Shown in pieces: positions 8,641 to 18,246 of a stretch of DNA of 25,282 nt. The position numbers were made by a program, and so were the translations under genes. The notes beneath the pieces were generated by a model. The model ran no database searches. It was not told the origin of the DNA and saw nothing but the letters and a program-made list of their open reading frames with translations. Origin of the DNA: a virus; the IMG/VR virus record IMGVR_UViG_3300036651_002161, positions 1-25,282 of that record, one strand, 5' to 3'. The stretch's first letter is position 1. Each line of letters begins with the position of its first letter.

Positions 8641-8670
8641 CGTGGTGACCCGTCATCCGGGAGACATAAA

Positions 8671-8700
8671 TAGACACGTGACAAGGCGTCATGGTACGAT
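8671..8700 (+). promoter_or_regulatory. Promoter with operator in spacer (TAGACA-18-TACGAT)
   Basis: TAGACA (8671-8676), spacer 18, TACGAT (8695-8700). GTGAC-AAGGC-GTCAT (8678-8692) is a family operator, shifted 7 bases to lie wholly in the spacer. A shorter palindrome, TGACCCGTCA (8646-8655), lies just upstream. It drives the gene at 8742. Confidence 0.6.
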
Positions 8701-8741
8701 GGCACTGATCGCGTCACCCAGGCTACGAGAGGACGATCAGC

Positions 8742-9089
8742 GTGCGAAGCAGAGAACAAAACCTGACCGGCACAGTTCTAGACGTGCTGGACGAGGTGCG
8801 CCGGGCCATGAATGCCGATCCGGATTTCAAAGTACAGTGGACCGACCACGCAAACCCCGAGCACTATCGCGTACCGTGGACTTCCAACAAGCGGATCGGG
8901 ATAGCCGGGGCTATTCTGCTAGGCGACACCGGCGCTAACTTCCAGGACTGTTACGCTGCCGTCTGGGAAGCAATTCAGGGCCGTCCTGGCACGGGGGACC
9001 CAGAACCCCCCAGCGAGATTCGCGTTACCATCACCGTCCGTGGCGGTGACGTACTGATTGACACGGCGTCAAACCCCGTAGTAAGATAG
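8742..9089 (+). CDS. Hypothetical small protein
   Basis: 115 residues from a GTG with GAGAGGA about 8 bases upstream. The N-terminal half is helical (LTGTVLDVLDEVRRAMNADPDF), then an aromatic middle (VQWTDHANPEHYRVPWTSN) and a short C-terminal beta part (EIRVTITVRGGDVLIDTA). No recognised family. It has its own operator-bearing promoter and leader, and its last codons contain the next promoter (9058-9087), so its transcript probably reads into the structured RNA region. Confidence 0.7.
   Translation: MRSREQNLTGTVLDVLDEVRRAMNADPDFKVQWTDHANPEHYRVPWTSNKRIGIAGAILLGDTGANFQDCYAAVWEAIQGRPGTGDPEPPSEIRVTITVRGGDVLIDTASNPVVR
9058..9087 (+). promoter_or_regulatory. Promoter with perfect operator for the structured RNA (TTGACA-18-TAAGAT)
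   Basis: TTGACA (9058-9063), spacer 18, TAAGAT (9082-9087). Operator TTGAC-ACGGC-GTCAA (9058-9072) is perfect in both half-sites. It lies inside the last codons of the 8742 gene and points into a region with no gene on the plus strand. Confidence 0.75.
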
Positions 9090-9092
9090 GCG

Positions 9093-9299
9093 GGCCGGGG
9101 TGGGAACCGTCGGGTAGCGGTACCCGCCCATCCCGGCTCCCGGATTGCCAGGGACCGAGGGTAAGTAGGAAAGTCAGCGCCTCGCCGGGCCGCCGACCGG
9201 CGTATAGGGCCTCTCACCCACCCGAGAGGCGGCGTATCCCCCCGGTTCCGGGCACAACGAGGGCCGCTCCCCCACCTTCGCAGGGTGAGCGGCCCTCGT
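9093..9299 (+). ncRNA. Candidate structured phage small RNA, about 205 bases
   Basis: Starts about 6 bases after a strong -10 and ends in a 13-bp hairpin. Predicted elements: an 11-bp stem (9094-9104 with 9127-9137, one G-U pair) carrying an inner 6-bp hairpin (9111-9116 with 9121-9126); CGCCGG/CCGGCG (9183-9188, 9197-9202); GCCTCTC/GAGAGGC (9209-9215, 9224-9230). CGCCTC (9178-9183) could alternatively pair with GAGGCG (9226-9231), giving a possible switch. GGCGTAT occurs twice (9199, 9231). No reasonable open frame exists. Not recognised as a known RNA family. Confidence 0.6.
9257..9299. terminator. Bidirectional 13-bp terminator hairpin
   Basis: Perfect arms 9257-9269 and 9287-9299, core GAGGGCCGCTC, with a CCC/GGG inner stem around a 9-base loop. 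On the plus side it is followed by CTGTGTTT. It lies 8 bases past the stop of the leftward gene 9307-9711, so it can end both the structured RNA and the leftward operon. Confidence 0.8.
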
Positions 9300-9306
9300 C
9301 TGTGTT

Positions 9307-9711
9307 TCAGTCCTTGCGCCAGCCCTGGGAGAGCAGGTACCGCGCCATCGCCTCCTCGGGCGTCCCGTTTTCGCTGGGGAGGACGTGGCAGAGGTCCTCG
9401 GTCAGCGCGGCGTGCATCGCCTTGTCGGCCAGGTCGCTCATTTCCCTGAGGTGCCGGATAATCACGATGGCCGGACCCCCGATGTGGCTGCCGATCTTCC
9501 CGCCGCGTTCGGTGTACGCCCGCAGGGAAGCGACCATGAACTCATGGCGCGGGGTGCCGCTATCCAGGTGCACCATGTGCTTGCGGTCCCTGCGCCAGCT
9601 CGGCAGGACCTCCTCCGCCAGTTTCCGGGTGATCGGGTCGTCGTAGAGCGCCTGCTCCACTTCACGATAGTTGCTGTCCACGATCGCCACGGTGCGGCCG
9701 ATCTCGTCCAT
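9307..9711 (-). CDS. Hypothetical protein, last gene of helicase operon
   Basis: 134 residues with a GAGGAG ribosome site formed by the last codons of the helicase gene. It looks mainly helical: YREVEQALYDDPITRKLAEEVLPSW, EFMVASLRAYTERG, IIRHLREMSDLADKAMHAAL, EEAMARYLLSQGW. No catalytic motif or zinc ligands are evident. One base separates it from the helicase stop, so the two are coupled. Unknown function; a helicase partner is possible from position alone. Confidence 0.75.
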   Translation of the reverse strand: MDEIGRTVAIVDSNYREVEQALYDDPITRKLAEEVLPSWRRDRKHMVHLDSGTPRHEFMVASLRAYTERGGKIGSHIGGPAIVIIRHLREMSDLADKAMHAALTEDLCHVLPSENGTPEEAMARYLLSQGWRKD

Positions 9712-11940: not shown

Positions 11941-12182
11941 GACACCGCCACCAGCCCGTCCGCAGCCATCCGCACGAGGGCCGCACGCACTGCTCCCGGG
12001 TCCTCGGGGTCGAAGGGGGCGTGTCCGATCTTCCGGGCCTCGTTGTTCACCCAGGCCCACACCGTGAAGGTTCCGTCGTCGTTCAGCTTGGCCGTGTACC
12101 GGCCGTACTCCCCAAACCCGGTTGCCCGGTCCAGCCGCGTCCGTAGGTATCCGGAGAGCGTGGTGTCGAGGAAGATAGCCAT
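11937..12182 (-). CDS. Small hypothetical protein, first gene of helicase operon
   Basis: 81 residues with a GGAG ribosome site. It contains a central beta pair (GRYTAKLNDDGTFTVWAWV) and a C-terminal helix (PGAVRAALVRMAADGLVAV). Not recognised. It is transcribed from the promoter at 12235-12263 with a leader of about 45 bases, and it heads the four-gene leftward operon ending at 9307. Confidence 0.7.
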   Translation of the reverse strand: MAIFLDTTLSGYLRTRLDRATGFGEYGRYTAKLNDDGTFTVWAWVNNEARKIGHAPFDPEDPGAVRAALVRMAADGLVAVS

Positions 12183-12357: not shown

Positions 12358-12831
12358 ATGACGAAATCGACCGGCCTGGCCTGGACCACCGCGTCTCTCC
12401 AGTCCGACGACTGGCAAGGAACTGCACAGGCGATGGTCTCGCTCGTCCAGGCTGGCTACGACAGTCTCGATGCAGCGGAGGCTGTGGGCCTTGCCATGAT
12501 GGCCGACTACGCCGTCAGCCTCGACGGGGTCTTTGGTGTGTCCATGTTGCAGACTGCCCCGGCTCACCCCCACGACTACGCCCTGGTTCCAGTTATTCTG
12601 CCTGATCTGGACCAGACCGTGGTGGCCCATCTTTGCACAGAGTGCGACCAGTGCTTCCCCAACGACGAATGGATCAATCACTATGAAGCTGCCCGATCGC
12701 TCGGGTCTGACAGTGGCCTACGACACCGAGGGCAGCGGCCTGTTTGTGGACGATGGCGCTCGTATTTCTGCTACCTCCATTGCCTGGCGGGACGAGTATG
12801 GCGACTTGTGCGCTACCTCGACCCCCTTTGA
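12358..12831 (+). CDS. Small protein with Cys/His motif, long 3' overlap with polymerase
   Basis: 157 residues if read to its stop; GGGAGGGAG is the ribosome site. The first 108 residues look genuine: two helices (WQGTAQAMVSLVQAGYDSL, DAAEAVGLAMMADYAV) then HLCTECDQCF...NHY, a C-x2-C-x2-C with a later His that could hold zinc. From residue 109 the frame lies inside the polymerase gene (149-base overlap) and becomes Arg/Cys-rich and unlike the first part. Family unknown. Confidence 0.6.
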   Translation: MTKSTGLAWTTASLQSDDWQGTAQAMVSLVQAGYDSLDAAEAVGLAMMADYAVSLDGVFGVSMLQTAPAHPHDYALVPVILPDLDQTVVAHLCTECDQCFPNDEWINHYEAARSLGSDSGLRHRGQRPVCGRWRSYFCYLHCLAGRVWRLVRYLDPL

Positions 12832-14665
12832 CCAGGGCCTGTTCGGCAACCATCTGGACTACGAGGGCTACCTTCCCTGTGGCGAGAAGCTGCTGGCTCC
12901 CAACCACCTCAAGCGCACCAACAAGCTTCGCAAGGACCACGGCGACGACTGCATGTCGGCCCCCAACCGCCTGCCCTCGGCTTTCTCCCACCTGATGACC
13001 TGGCTCCTCCGCCAGGACCTCGTCATGCACCACAAGAAATACGACTGCCTGGTTACCGACGCTGGCCTCCGCAACCACCCGGAAACCGGCGTCGATCTGA
13101 TGCCCCGCGTCATCGCGGATACCCAGCTCCGCCAGAAGGTTCTGGACCCCGAGCACACAAGCTCCCTCAAGCCCACCTCGGTCCGCCTCCACCTAGGCAA
13201 GGAGATCGGCATCGGGGACGGCGGCGAGGACATGGAGGCCGAGGCCCTCAAGCCGTGGAAGGGTCCCAAGGACGACCCCCGCTACGACCTCATACCCTGG
13301 TCCATCCTCGGCCCATACGCCCGCACCGATGCTCTCCTCACTCTACTTCTGTTCGAGTGGGAGGAGCAGAACCGCCTGGACGATCCCGACGACCCGGCGT
13401 GCCAGCTAGCCAGGAGGCTTATCACCCGCCAGGAGGCGCTAGCCCGCACGTTGTACAACATGGAGAGACGTGGTGTCGGCTTCGACGTCGAGTGGTGCCG
13501 CGCCCAGGCCGTCAACCTTGCCAGGCTCGAAGGCGAGGCGAAGGGCCGCGTCCCTTTCCGGCCAACGTACCCGGGGGCTCAGAAATATTTCTTCGGTCCC
13601 CCAGCCGATGGCGGACTAGGCTTGATACCCTTCAAAGACAAGCTGACCTCAACCGGTCGCCCCCAGGTGGACGAGGACGTGGTTGCCCGGCTTGTCGCAG
13701 CGGAGATACCCGGAGCTACCGAGTTCCAGACGCTGATGTCCCTGCAAAGCGCCCAGTCCAAGTGGTACACCGCGTATCCAAGCCTTACCGGCGCGGACGG
13801 AAGGATCCGGACCTGCTATCGCCAGGGGCACGTCGTTTCCGGCCGCCTCTCGGTTGAGCGCTGGCAGTCGCAAGCCATCCCCCACGATCACCAGATTCCA
13901 GAGGGTATCGAGCCCATCCGCTACGGCTTCATCGAGGACGAGGGCTACGAGACCTGGGAGGCCGACGTTTCCCAGGCGGAGATCCGCGTGGCCACCAAGG
14001 TCGCCAAGTGCGGTGACATGCTCCGGGCCATCCGCGCTGGCATCGACTCCCACGGGGCCGCTGCCTTCCTGATGTTCTACAAGAGCCAGGGCTACACTCT
14101 CGAAGAGGCCATGGCCCGGCCTGACTGGGACTTCAACCGTGGCGTGGTTGCCAAGCGATGCAACCTCGGCATCCTCTACGGCGGGGGCGTCGGCGCGATC
14201 CATGCCGCCATTCTCAAGTTCGCTGGTATCGACGAGGACAAGGACCAGGTCCGCGAGTGGATAACAACGTGGAGGCAAGCCTTCCCGCCGTTTGTGTTGG
14301 CTTTGGACGAGTACGCCGACATGGCCAGCAAGCAGGGCTGGGTCCGCCTCGTGGATGGCTCCCGGCGCTACTTTTCCGAGTGGGAGCCCGTCCACAAGGC
14401 CTTCAACCAGCGCGTGCAGGGCGACGTCGCGATCGCGGTCGAAACCGCCATGATCGAGTTCGATCGCCTCTACCCCGGCATGCTCCTCCTCCAAATACAC
14501 GACTCCCTCGTCGCCCGGATTCCCCGGGACTCTGTCCCGGAAGTAACAGCCGCGATGACCGATATCCTGGTCCGGGTCTTTGAGCGGATGTTCTCCCCCG
14601 TTCCTTTCAAGGCCGACGTCAAGCCCTTCGGCCGCCTCGCCTACCAGTTGGAGGCCGCCAAGTGA
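12683..14665 (+). CDS. Family A DNA polymerase with 3'-5' exonuclease (possible DpoZ)
   Basis: 660 residues, replicative polymerase. Exonuclease motifs: Asp14/Glu16 (YDTEG), a middle MHHKKYD, and Tyr212-xxx-Asp216 (YARTD). Polymerase motifs: the RIRTCYRQGHVVSGRLS element, motif A EADVSQAEIRVA (about residue 427), motif B VVAKRCNLGILYGG (about 490-505), and motif C QIHDSL with His606/Asp607, where Ser replaces the common Glu after His-Asp. The start at 12683 keeps the DTEG motif at the N-terminus; an open frame before it lacks protein-like sequence. Phages with PurZ carry family A enzymes (DpoZ) that favour 2-aminoadenine; the position two genes upstream of the PurZ-like gene fits, but preference cannot be read from sequence. 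Confidence 0.93.
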   Translation: MKLPDRSGLTVAYDTEGSGLFVDDGARISATSIAWRDEYGDLCATSTPFDQGLFGNHLDYEGYLPCGEKLLAPNHLKRTNKLRKDHGDDCMSAPNRLPSAFSHLMTWLLRQDLVMHHKKYDCLVTDAGLRNHPETGVDLMPRVIADTQLRQKVLDPEHTSSLKPTSVRLHLGKEIGIGDGGEDMEAEALKPWKGPKDDPRYDLIPWSILGPYARTDALLTLLLFEWEEQNRLDDPDDPACQLARRLITRQEALARTLYNMERRGVGFDVEWCRAQAVNLARLEGEAKGRVPFRPTYPGAQKYFFGPPADGGLGLIPFKDKLTSTGRPQVDEDVVARLVAAEIPGATEFQTLMSLQSAQSKWYTAYPSLTGADGRIRTCYRQGHVVSGRLSVERWQSQAIPHDHQIPEGIEPIRYGFIEDEGYETWEADVSQAEIRVATKVAKCGDMLRAIRAGIDSHGAAAFLMFYKSQGYTLEEAMARPDWDFNRGVVAKRCNLGILYGGGVGAIHAAILKFAGIDEDKDQVREWITTWRQAFPPFVLALDEYADMASKQGWVRLVDGSRRYFSEWEPVHKAFNQRVQGDVAIAVETAMIEFDRLYPGMLLLQIHDSLVARIPRDSVPEVTAAMTDILVRVFERMFSPVPFKADVKPFGRLAYQLEAAK

Positions 14666-14766
14666 AGCGCTTCTTTGAGCTGGTGGGCCTGGTCCTCCTC
14701 CTCGCCCTGGGTCTCCTCGTCATCCTTATCATCCTTGAGTTCTTCGGCTACCGCACCCATGGCTAG
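14662..14766 (+). CDS. 34-residue single-pass membrane peptide
   Basis: Starts at the GTG of a GTGA overlap with the polymerase stop and overlaps the RuvC-like start by 8 bases. After KRFFE comes an uninterrupted hydrophobic helix of about 20 residues (LVGLVLLLALGLLVILIIL), then a short polar tail. Too short for confident assignment, but the overlaps on both sides and strong hydrophobic periodicity support a real microprotein. Confidence 0.5.
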   Translation: MKRFFELVGLVLLLALGLLVILIILEFFGYRTHG

Positions 14767-15322
14767 AACCCGCCACATCTTCGCTATTGATCCGGGCGAG
14801 GTCCACTGCGGCTTTGCCTGGTACACTATCTACCACCGCCCGGTAATACACGAGCACACTAACGCCGACGCTCTCCACCACTGCGTCGATTCAAGTTCGG
14901 ATGGGATCCTCCATCTCACCCGCTGCGTCACGTTCTCTCCGCCGATGGACCTGATCGAGTACCTGGAAACTAACATCCGCTACGCCTCCGTTATCGTCGT
15001 GGAGCGCTTCCAGCTCTATCCCTGGATGGCCCGCCAGCAGGGCTTCTCCACCTTCGGCACAGCCGAGACCATCGGCATGATCAAGTATCTCGCAGGCCGG
15101 TACGACATTCCCGTCCGCCTGCAGGACGCCGCCCGCAACCTGAAGGAGGGACGTGGTCGCGCTGCTGACTGGGGATTTGACATGGTGGAGCGCAAGCTTG
15201 GGTCTGGCCGTTTTGTCTATCGCGGCCCAGATTTCAACCTGCCAGGCCAGCCTCACCGCCGCGATGCCGCCTCCCACGGTGCCCAGTATTGCGGTTCCTC
15301 TGGCGCCTATGAACCCACCTGA
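14759..15322 (+). CDS. RuvC-like Holliday junction resolvase
   Basis: 187 residues. RNase H-fold active-site residues are in the expected order: Asp11 (FAIDPG), Glu82 (VIVVERF), and Asp169 with His173 near the C-terminus (HRRDAASHGAQY). An Arg/Lys segment (RNLKEGRGRAAD) precedes the last motif. It should cleave four-way or branched DNA before packaging. The ATG lies inside the preceding membrane-peptide frame. It is followed by a promoter, so it ends the polymerase transcription unit. Confidence 0.85.
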   Translation: MARTRHIFAIDPGEVHCGFAWYTIYHRPVIHEHTNADALHHCVDSSSDGILHLTRCVTFSPPMDLIEYLETNIRYASVIVVERFQLYPWMARQQGFSTFGTAETIGMIKYLAGRYDIPVRLQDAARNLKEGRGRAADWGFDMVERKLGSGRFVYRGPDFNLPGQPHRRDAASHGAQYCGSSGAYEPT

Positions 15323-15332
15323 TTTGCCGCCG

Positions 15333-15362
15333 TTGACACCCAGTCAATGACGGTGCTAGGCT
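15333..15362 (+). promoter_or_regulatory. Promoter with perfect operator for the nucleotide operon (TTGACA-18-TAGGCT)
   Basis: TTGACA (15333-15338), spacer 18, TAGGCT (15357-15362). Operator TTGAC-ACCCA-GTCAA (15333-15347) is perfect in both half-sites. The leader of about 70 bases to the PurZ-like GTG at 15437 holds an AGGAGG site. It is closely similar to the polymerase promoter at 12294. Confidence 0.8.
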
Positions 15363-15436
15363 ATCTCTGTCGCCCGTCCCGTGCCGCTCCTATATCGGTT
15401 CCGGGCCGGGCGTTCCAACACCCCAGGAGGACACTA

Positions 15437-16579
15437 GTGCCCAATCTTCAAGTTGTGGTCGGCGGCCAGTACGGTTCGGAGGGCAAGGGTGCCATCGCCG
15501 CCTACCTCTGCAAGGATCGCTCTGACCTCGTCGCGGTCCGGGTCGGCGGCTCGAACGCTGGCCACACAGTCATCGGCCGCTGCCCCCCGGCCTGCCCAGA
15601 GCGAGCCGCACCGGACGGCATCGGCGCTCACCACCCGGACGCCCATCCGTGGCGGCTCCGTCACGTCCCCGTGGCCGCCGTGACCGCTCCCGGGGCCATG
15701 CTCTACCTGGCGGCCGGCTCCGAGATCGATCCCGGCGTGCTGCTCGCGGAAATCCGCGATCTCGACCTAGCTGGCTACGGTGTCTCCCATCGCCTGGAAA
15801 TCCACCCACAGGCCACCCTGGTCGAGCAGCGCCACAAGGACCACGAGTCCTACGTTGCCCTGCTGGAAACCTGCGGTTCCACCGTCAAGGGCGTCGGCTC
15901 CGCTCGCGCGGACCGTGCCATGCGTTTCGCTTCCCTGGTCACCGATCACCCTGCCCTCGCGGACTACAGCGCCCACGGCGCGACTCCCCAGCGCTACCTT
16001 GCCACCGGCTACGACGTCCTGATCGAGGGAACCCAGGGCTACGGCCTCGGCCTGCACGCCGGAAACTACCCCCAGTGCACCTCCGGGGACTGCACTGCCA
16101 TGGATTTCCTCGCCCAGGCGGGAGTCGCCCCCTGGCGCGGCAAGGTTGGCTTCGAGGTCTGGGTCGTGTTCCGCGCCTACCCCATCCGGGTAGCCGGAAA
16201 CTCCGGCCCCCTGGCCGACGAGACCACCTGGGCCGATCTCGGCCTCCCCGTCGAGCACACCACCGTCACCCGCAAGGTTCGCCGCGTCGGCGGCTGGGAC
16301 ATGTCCCTCGCTGCGGACGCCATGCTCGCCAACGGCCACCCGTCCCCCAACGTCCACGTTGCGCTGACCATGGTAGACCACGTGGTGCCGGGGGTCGCGG
16401 GAGTCGCCACCATGGGCGGCCTCCAAGCCTGCCCCCGCGACACCGTTACCCAGTACGAAAACTACATACAGCAGCGCACCTCCTCCCTGGGCCACTCCAT
16501 CGACATCATCGGGACTGGCCCCTCCACCGTCCTCGACCGCTTCGCCGTCCCCGAGGAGCTTACCCGCTATGGCTTCTGA
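15437..16579 (+). CDS. purZ: PurZ-like aminoadenylosuccinate synthetase (PurA family)
   Basis: 380 residues from a GTG with AGGAGG upstream. PurA-family features: N-terminal loop VVVGGQYGSEGKG (residues 6-18), GGSNAGHTV with His43, IEGTQGYGL, and the Arg-rich aspartate-binding loop VTRKVRRVGGWD. Bacterial PurA has GDEGKG with a catalytic Asp; here the Asp is Ser14. That Asp-to-Ser change is the recorded hallmark of phage PurZ, which joins dGMP and aspartate on the way to 2-amino-dATP for Z-containing genomes. It is shorter than E. coli PurA. A MazZ-like gene overlaps its 3' end. An IMP-using PurA cannot be fully excluded by eye. Confidence 0.88.
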   Translation: MPNLQVVVGGQYGSEGKGAIAAYLCKDRSDLVAVRVGGSNAGHTVIGRCPPACPERAAPDGIGAHHPDAHPWRLRHVPVAAVTAPGAMLYLAAGSEIDPGVLLAEIRDLDLAGYGVSHRLEIHPQATLVEQRHKDHESYVALLETCGSTVKGVGSARADRAMRFASLVTDHPALADYSAHGATPQRYLATGYDVLIEGTQGYGLGLHAGNYPQCTSGDCTAMDFLAQAGVAPWRGKVGFEVWVVFRAYPIRVAGNSGPLADETTWADLGLPVEHTTVTRKVRRVGGWDMSLAADAMLANGHPSPNVHVALTMVDHVVPGVAGVATMGGLQACPRDTVTQYENYIQQRTSSLGHSIDIIGTGPSTVLDRFAVPEELTRYGF

Positions 16580-17419: not shown

Positions 17420-17966
17420 CCTCAAGCCCGCTGACGTCCTGGTCGTTCGCAGTACCGATGTGTTCGGTACGCTGATCGAGCTGGGCGACAAGCTTGCTGG
17501 CCTGCCCGATTATTCTCACGTCGCTGTGGTCCACCACACCGACCCGGCTGGCACTATCTGGTGTATCGAAGGCCGCCCCGGTGGCGTCGGCTGGCGCACC
17601 GCCAACACTTACCTCTCCAGCACTCTCACCATTTCCAACACCGACCAGCCCATCGCCCCGGAGATCCGCGCTTCCATCTGCACCGAGATGCGCAAGATGC
17701 TCGGCACTCCCTACGACTGGGACGGCATCGCAGGTGACGCACTGCGCGATCTGCACCTCCCCCTCCTGTGGTCCGAGAAGTGGGGACCCCGTGGCCTGCC
17801 CCCCGCCCAGGTAGTTTGCAGCAGCTTCGCGGCCTGGCTCTACGCCCACTTCGGCCTCCGCTATCCTTCCACTTCCGTCATGGCCCACGTCGAGCCCGCC
17901 GACTGGGCTGTCTTCATCGAGTCGCGTGCCTGGCTGACCCCGCCTTCGGCCGGCGATGCGCGATGA
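17397..17966 (+). CDS. Permuted NlpC/P60-like cysteine hydrolase
   Basis: 189 residues from a GTG with AAAGGGG; it overlaps the dUTPase by 23 bases. Expected elements of a permuted NlpC/P60 (YiiX-like) fold: an early His41 (DYSHVAVVH), Glu58 (CIEGRPGGV), and a late Cys141 at a helix start (VVCSSFAAWLYAHFG). There is no signal peptide. Members cleave peptide, amide or ester bonds. Its place among nucleotide and regulatory genes argues against a lysis role. Substrate unknown. Confidence 0.7.
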   Translation: MASVALADLKPADVLVVRSTDVFGTLIELGDKLAGLPDYSHVAVVHHTDPAGTIWCIEGRPGGVGWRTANTYLSSTLTISNTDQPIAPEIRASICTEMRKMLGTPYDWDGIAGDALRDLHLPLLWSEKWGPRGLPPAQVVCSSFAAWLYAHFGLRYPSTSVMAHVEPADWAVFIESRAWLTPPSAGDAR

Positions 17967-18246
17967 ACAATGGTGGAGGCGGGCAGCCTGCCGTACCTTT
18001 GACCACCCTGACTGGTTCTTCAACATGTCGGGTGATCCGCAGGGCATCAAGTCCCGCCTCCAATATCTCTGCTCCGGCTGCAAGGTTTTCGACGACTGCA
18101 GGGAGTACGTAGACGAACTCGAATATCTCCAACCCCTGCGCCTCTGCCACGGCTTCTGGGCCGGGGAGACCGTCAAGGAACGTGTCGCCCGTCGCGAGGC
18201 CACCGCCCGCCGCACCGTCATTTTACTATTCGGGAGCACTACGTGA
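17956..18246 (+). CDS. WhiB-like 4Fe-4S transcription factor
   Basis: 96 residues. Four cluster-binding cysteines: Cys12, Cys39, Cys42 and Cys48 in the WhiB pattern C...C-x2-C-x5-C (LCSGCKVFDDC), an aromatic HPDWFF after the first Cys, GFWAGE as the G(V/I)WGG-type turn at 66-71, and a basic C-terminal helix (KERVARREATARR). WhiB proteins contact the host primary sigma factor. Phage copies are known to interfere with host WhiB regulation (TM4). It overlaps genes on both sides, so it belongs to the operon downstream of PurZ. It supports an actinobacterial host. Confidence 0.88.
   Translation: MRDEQWWRRAACRTFDHPDWFFNMSGDPQGIKSRLQYLCSGCKVFDDCREYVDELEYLQPLRLCHGFWAGETVKERVARREATARRTVILLFGSTT

Follow-up and report, generated by a model that had tools for sequence, protein, structure and literature searches.

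A candidate structured small-RNA gene with an operator-type promoter in the replication module of a probable actinobacteriophage

The DNA stretch analyzed here (hereafter the window) is a 25,282-base IMG/VR record with a GC content of 65% and derives from a tailed phage, probably of an actinobacterial host. An actinobacterium is the probable host because the PurZ protein is nearest to those of Streptomyces, Microbacterium, Arthrobacter and Gordonia phages and because a WhiB protein is present. The gene for this WhiB-family transcription factor lies at 17956-18246 on the plus strand. The replication module comprises, in order, genes for an exonuclease, Sak4 and Prim-Pol, a small gene followed by the candidate RNA described below, a helicase operon on the minus strand, and genes for a family A DNA polymerase, a RuvC-like protein, a PurZ-like adenylosuccinate synthetase and a dUTPase-like protein (the RuvC-like and dUTPase-like labels were assigned by inspection only). 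The polymerase gene adjoins that of the PurZ-like synthetase (12683-16579), and this pair of neighbours suggests that the phage may have 2-aminoadenine DNA.

The candidate RNA occupies a gap (9090-9306) that separates two convergent genes. The upstream gene on the plus strand (8742-9089) encodes a protein of 115 amino acids that belongs to no known family and has a weakly positive codon score (+0.16). The downstream gene (9307-9711, minus strand) is a member of phrog_2223, a family of unknown function, and is the first gene upstream of the shared terminator on that strand. The original prediction had placed a perfect operator and a TTGACA-18-TAAGAT promoter ahead of the gap, and both were verified at 9058-9087 (plus strand). 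The -35 element TTGACA (9058-9063), an 18-nt spacer and the -10 element TAAGAT (9082-9087) all lie within the last codons of the upstream gene, and a perfect dyad, TTGAC-ACGGC-GTCAA (9058-9072), overlaps the -35 element as a putative phage operator. Scoring used a position matrix derived exclusively from 14 promoters in related phages, to which the window contributed none. By this measure the promoter reached 25.8 bits and ranked fifth among all sites in the window, compared with a maximum of 16.4 bits in 40 simulated windows. Pattern matching identified seven promoters in the window, and this is the only one of them that lacks an ORF within approximately 190 nt. The transcription start predicted from the -10 element (~9094) coincides with the 5' end of the first stem in the predicted RNA.

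This promoter belongs to the common class of the phage. Seven copies of the dyad TGAC-N5-GTCA are present in the window (528, 1522, 4172, 5654, 8679, 9059 and 15334) against 0.3 expected and a maximum of two in 200 shuffles, with related sites near 2849, 12250 and 12294. The majority of the copies coincide with the -35 element in promoters of the form TTGACA-18-TAxxxT, shortly upstream of genes. The TTGAC-N5-GTCAA operator/promoter class is thus phage-wide, and four related IMG/VR phages show the same arrangement. A natural candidate for the protein that binds these operators is a Cro/C1-type HTH protein encoded at 2519-2779 on the minus strand (PF13560, E 2.2e-7), and a promoter of the same class (26 bits, at 2849 on the minus strand) lies directly upstream of its gene. 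The presumed operator DNA for this regulator is TTGACACGGCGTCAA.

The DNA downstream of the promoter lacks coding character, in agreement with the claim that it contains no usable open frame. No ORF of at least 40 amino acids was found on the plus strand of 9090-9284. A single plus-strand frame is free of stop codons by chance, but it has no start codon and a codon log-odds of -0.66. Codon scores were negative in all six frames, compared with +0.63 for 9307-9711 (which was itself part of the training set) and the weakly positive value of the upstream gene. A hidden protein and a frameshift extension of 8742-9089 were both ruled out by these scores. A search against Rfam 15 returned no family match to the region even at E 10, and ARAGORN found neither a tRNA nor a tmRNA, which upholds the view that it is neither a tRNA nor a named RNA family. 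With its start taken from the -10 element and its end from the terminator hairpin, the predicted small RNA covers 9094-9299 (plus strand, about 206 nt).

The predicted fold of 9094-9299 has a minimum free energy (MFE) of -121.3 kcal/mol and a z-score of -5.0, which none of 200 shuffles equalled. It is the most stable 206-nt fold in the window, matched by none of 2508 sampled segments of this length. With the terminator removed, the z-score is -2.5 and four of 200 shuffles fold as well, and GC correction puts the 161-nt core in fifth place among 629 segments. Much of the z-score of the whole RNA is therefore supplied by the terminator, and the strength of the folding evidence is not to be overstated. 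The MFE structure is identical to the centroid structure, and its helices have pair probabilities of 0.67-0.99 that remain nearly unchanged when upstream mRNA is included, pointing to a context-independent fold. The first element, SL1 (9094-9137), is a 17-bp bulged hairpin composed of an 11-bp stem, a 6-nt bulge and a 6-bp stem with a GCGG loop (mean pair probability 0.98-0.99). It is followed by a multibranched domain (9146-9254) closed by a 14-bp long-range stem (9146-9161/9240-9254, 0.80-0.99). Inside this domain lie the short stems 9168-9170/9237-9239 and 9177-9181/9231-9235 (0.67-0.82) and the hairpins P4 (CGCCGG/CCGGCG, 9183-9202, 0.98) and P5 (GCCTCTC/GAGAGGC, 9209-9230, 0.99). The four stems listed in the original prediction and both copies of GGCGTAT (9199-9205 and 9231-9237) were placed correctly. 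The list was incomplete, since it overlooked the 14-bp long-range stem, by which the two middle hairpins become part of one multibranched domain.

The hairpins could also act in DNA, for example in a recombination site or an origin of replication. A position within the replication module, flanked by convergent units, and the ability of both strands to fold well are compatible with such an element. However, the core has a GC content of 72% and no AT-rich stretch for unwinding, inspection by eye found no iterated short sites inside it, and the promoter order suits an RNA gene, which makes a DNA-level element very improbable.

At the 3' end, a 13-bp hairpin (9257-9299, plus strand) was found between the convergent genes where it had been predicted, with a pair probability of 0.99, and its reading as a terminator is supported. 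It folds on both strands and is probably used from both sides, that is, also by the convergent operon. The hairpin is followed by CTGTGTTTC, and a clean T run is absent. Terminators that have no clean T run are usual in actinobacteria. One arm of P5, AGGGCCTCTCACCCACC (9208-9224), is a near-copy of the 5' arm of the terminator, AGGGCCGCTCCCCCACC (9260-9276), a resemblance that three of 200 shuffles score equally high. This near-identity makes an alternative pairing conceivable, and the element might then be a regulated terminator in which P5 competes with the 5' arm, so that the RNA would be an attenuator and not a trans-acting molecule. Read-through, however, would run antisense to the convergent gene and the helicase, with no downstream plus-strand gene to regulate, and the terminator stem itself is predicted to pair almost invariably. 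An attenuator is scarcely credible at this position.

Alignments of PurZ, helicase and polymerase identified four IMG/VR contigs (L005/L088, L007/L085, L086 and L087) that share this gene order at about 41-58% protein identity. None of the four carries a recognizable RNA at the corresponding position. The place is taken by small genes in L087 and by other genes in L086, it is rearranged in L007, and in L005 approximately 20 nt lie between the small gene and the terminator. The last arrangement bears on the proposal that the gap represents a structured 3' untranslated region plus terminator of gene 8742-9089, with a weak or incidental internal promoter and no separate RNA. The overlap of the 9058 promoter with the 3' end of this gene is compatible with that proposal, as are an operator resembling the class and a promoter-like site upstream of the gene (8671-8700), the finding of no terminator-like site from the gene to 9257, and the retention of the same fold in the longer transcript. 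In contrast, the internal promoter is one of the top five sites of the window, and since L005 terminates after about 20 nt, 165 nt of extra structure would be unnecessary for termination. We regard a 3' untranslated region as an unlikely account of the locus.

Elsewhere in the relatives, units of similar arrangement were found. In L087, the segment 13825-14058 (minus strand), located between the exonuclease and Sak4 genes, consists of a class promoter (14058, minus strand) and approximately 200 nt of non-coding DNA with a very strong fold (z-score -6.3), and ends with a terminator adjoined by a convergent small gene. This predicted unit is itself a good small-RNA candidate. In L085 (9189-9448, plus strand), a class promoter at 9189 is followed by approximately 230 nt of folded non-coding DNA (z-score -2.9) with a large terminal hairpin, and the unit precedes the gene upstream of the polymerase. 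Weaker candidates are present between the exonuclease and Sak4 genes of L088, where the promoter has no dyad, and of L086, where promoter and direction are unclear. Marginal cases apart, these units align with the window RNA or with one another no better than shuffles do, and they contain no match to the covariance model built on 9094-9254. They are best described as analogues by arrangement. Separately, the cultured Arthrobacter phage Pumancara (L003) has a syntenic gap of 384 nt (8654-9037) between its Prim-Pol and polymerase genes. This gap contains hairpins and a terminator-like element; it was rejected as a homologue, as it shows no similarity to the window RNA.

Broader searches of phage, plasmid, IMG/VR and GTDB sequences returned no homologue of the candidate RNA. 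With blastn, neither the phage collection (no match at E 1e-5; pieces with E 3-9) nor plasmids gave more than chance-level pieces. Exact motif matches in IMG/VR and GTDB were absent or at chance level, and the chance ones were rejected by the covariance model. Queries with single neighbouring proteins led to no homologues, and a polymerase alignment search of GTDB gave nothing. The covariance model of 9094-9254, run on 58 loci and eight whole records, recovered the RNA itself plus two sub-threshold matches in the window.

A sequence that is not conserved, at a place where relatives have other small genes, and with a modest z-score once the terminator is removed, might be a hairpin-rich, GC-rich intergenic remnant of decayed small genes or old terminators, whose promoter may fire to give an inert RNA. 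Such a functionless remnant is improbable, however, given the high pair probabilities of nearly all helices, the agreement of MFE and centroid structures and the similar units that two relatives carry behind promoters of this class.

The region has several counterparts among characterized phage RNAs. In the cluster A mycobacteriophages L5, D29 and StarStuff, Pleft, a promoter under repressor control, gives rise to early non-coding RNAs that are stable and abundant; the Pleft RNA region is toxic to M. smegmatis and has no known function (PMC5712189). These RNAs are about 500 nt in length, lie at the genome end without an evident stem-loop terminator and are processed into smaller species (PMC5712189). 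The candidate resembles them in its occurrence in an actinophage, its lack of usable ORFs and its phage promoter with a (here putative) repressor/operator site. In contrast to the Pleft RNAs, it is about 206 nt in length, internal and closed by a 13-bp terminal hairpin, and its putative operator is a symmetric sequence different from that of the cluster A Pleft; by sequence, it had no match to this group in the phage collection at the threshold given above. Intergenic non-coding RNAs have also been seen by RNA-seq in D29 (63-64) and StarStuff (68-69) (PMC5712189), and three in the Rhodococcus phage WC1 (PMC10986025). Like these, the candidate lies in a non-coding actinophage region between genes and has no known function; they were detected as transcripts, whereas the RNA described here is predicted only, and a search of the phage collection revealed no DNA similarity between them and the candidate. 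Targets are known for phage sRNAs such as OOP, sar, DicF, IsrK and AgvB, several of which base-pair with RNA targets (PMC12197685). IsrK (217 nt) is of similar size (PMC12197685), but unlike several sRNAs of this type the candidate is almost wholly paired and has no clear target in the window. Like phage small non-coding RNAs in general, it has its own promoter, no translated frame and a predicted, defined 3' end. It thus appears to be new in sequence and of a kind already known from L5/D29 and WC1.

Computation establishes which class the promoter belongs to, that a coding signal is absent, how the RNA is predicted to fold and that the order is promoter-RNA-terminator. Since the analysis supports the promoter, the non-coding character, the dense and stable folding and the terminator, and since relatives have similar units, a candidate phage small RNA, as first proposed, is the best reading of the region; the proposal is partly supported, the transcript being predicted. 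The best explanation, and a rather likely one, is that 9058-9299 forms a self-contained RNA gene of the phage, and we are fairly confident that the candidate is a discrete RNA. Counted against a discrete RNA were the lack of a homologue, the closest relatives having no RNA here, the reduced z-score without the terminator and the imperfect T run. The modelled unit is probably a small-RNA gene controlled by an operator of the phage itself.

From these features we infer transcription, its exact ends, HTH control and a mode of action. The promoter would be controlled through the TTGAC-N5-GTCAA operator by a regulator that the phage encodes, possibly the Cro/C1-type protein, and transcription would begin at ~9094, together with expression of the replication genes. 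The product, an RNA of approximately 206 nt in which a bulged hairpin precedes a multibranched domain, would end at the hairpin that would also serve the convergent operon. Pairing of its unpaired segments with the 40 translation starts of the window was not clearly above chance, the sole borderline case (uncorrected) being the linker between SL1 and the multibranched domain with the start at 12182 (minus strand). Because little of the RNA is left unpaired and the search of the window gave no clear target, we favour, with low confidence, action through structure over antisense pairing. Tentatively, the stable paired RNA may act in trans by its shape, binding a protein or ribonucleoprotein of the host or the phage.

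If transcribed, this sequence-novel structured RNA would join the few known actinophage non-coding RNAs, a class with high expression, toxicity in one case and no known mechanism. The promoter/operator rule offers a route to further orphan RNA units in related phages. More speculatively, and with considerable doubt on our part, each member of the purZ-bearing actinophage group might carry a fast-evolving folded RNA gene under a common operator at shifting positions of the replication module, and these RNAs might form an unrecognized host-acting class, for example decoys for host or defence proteins.
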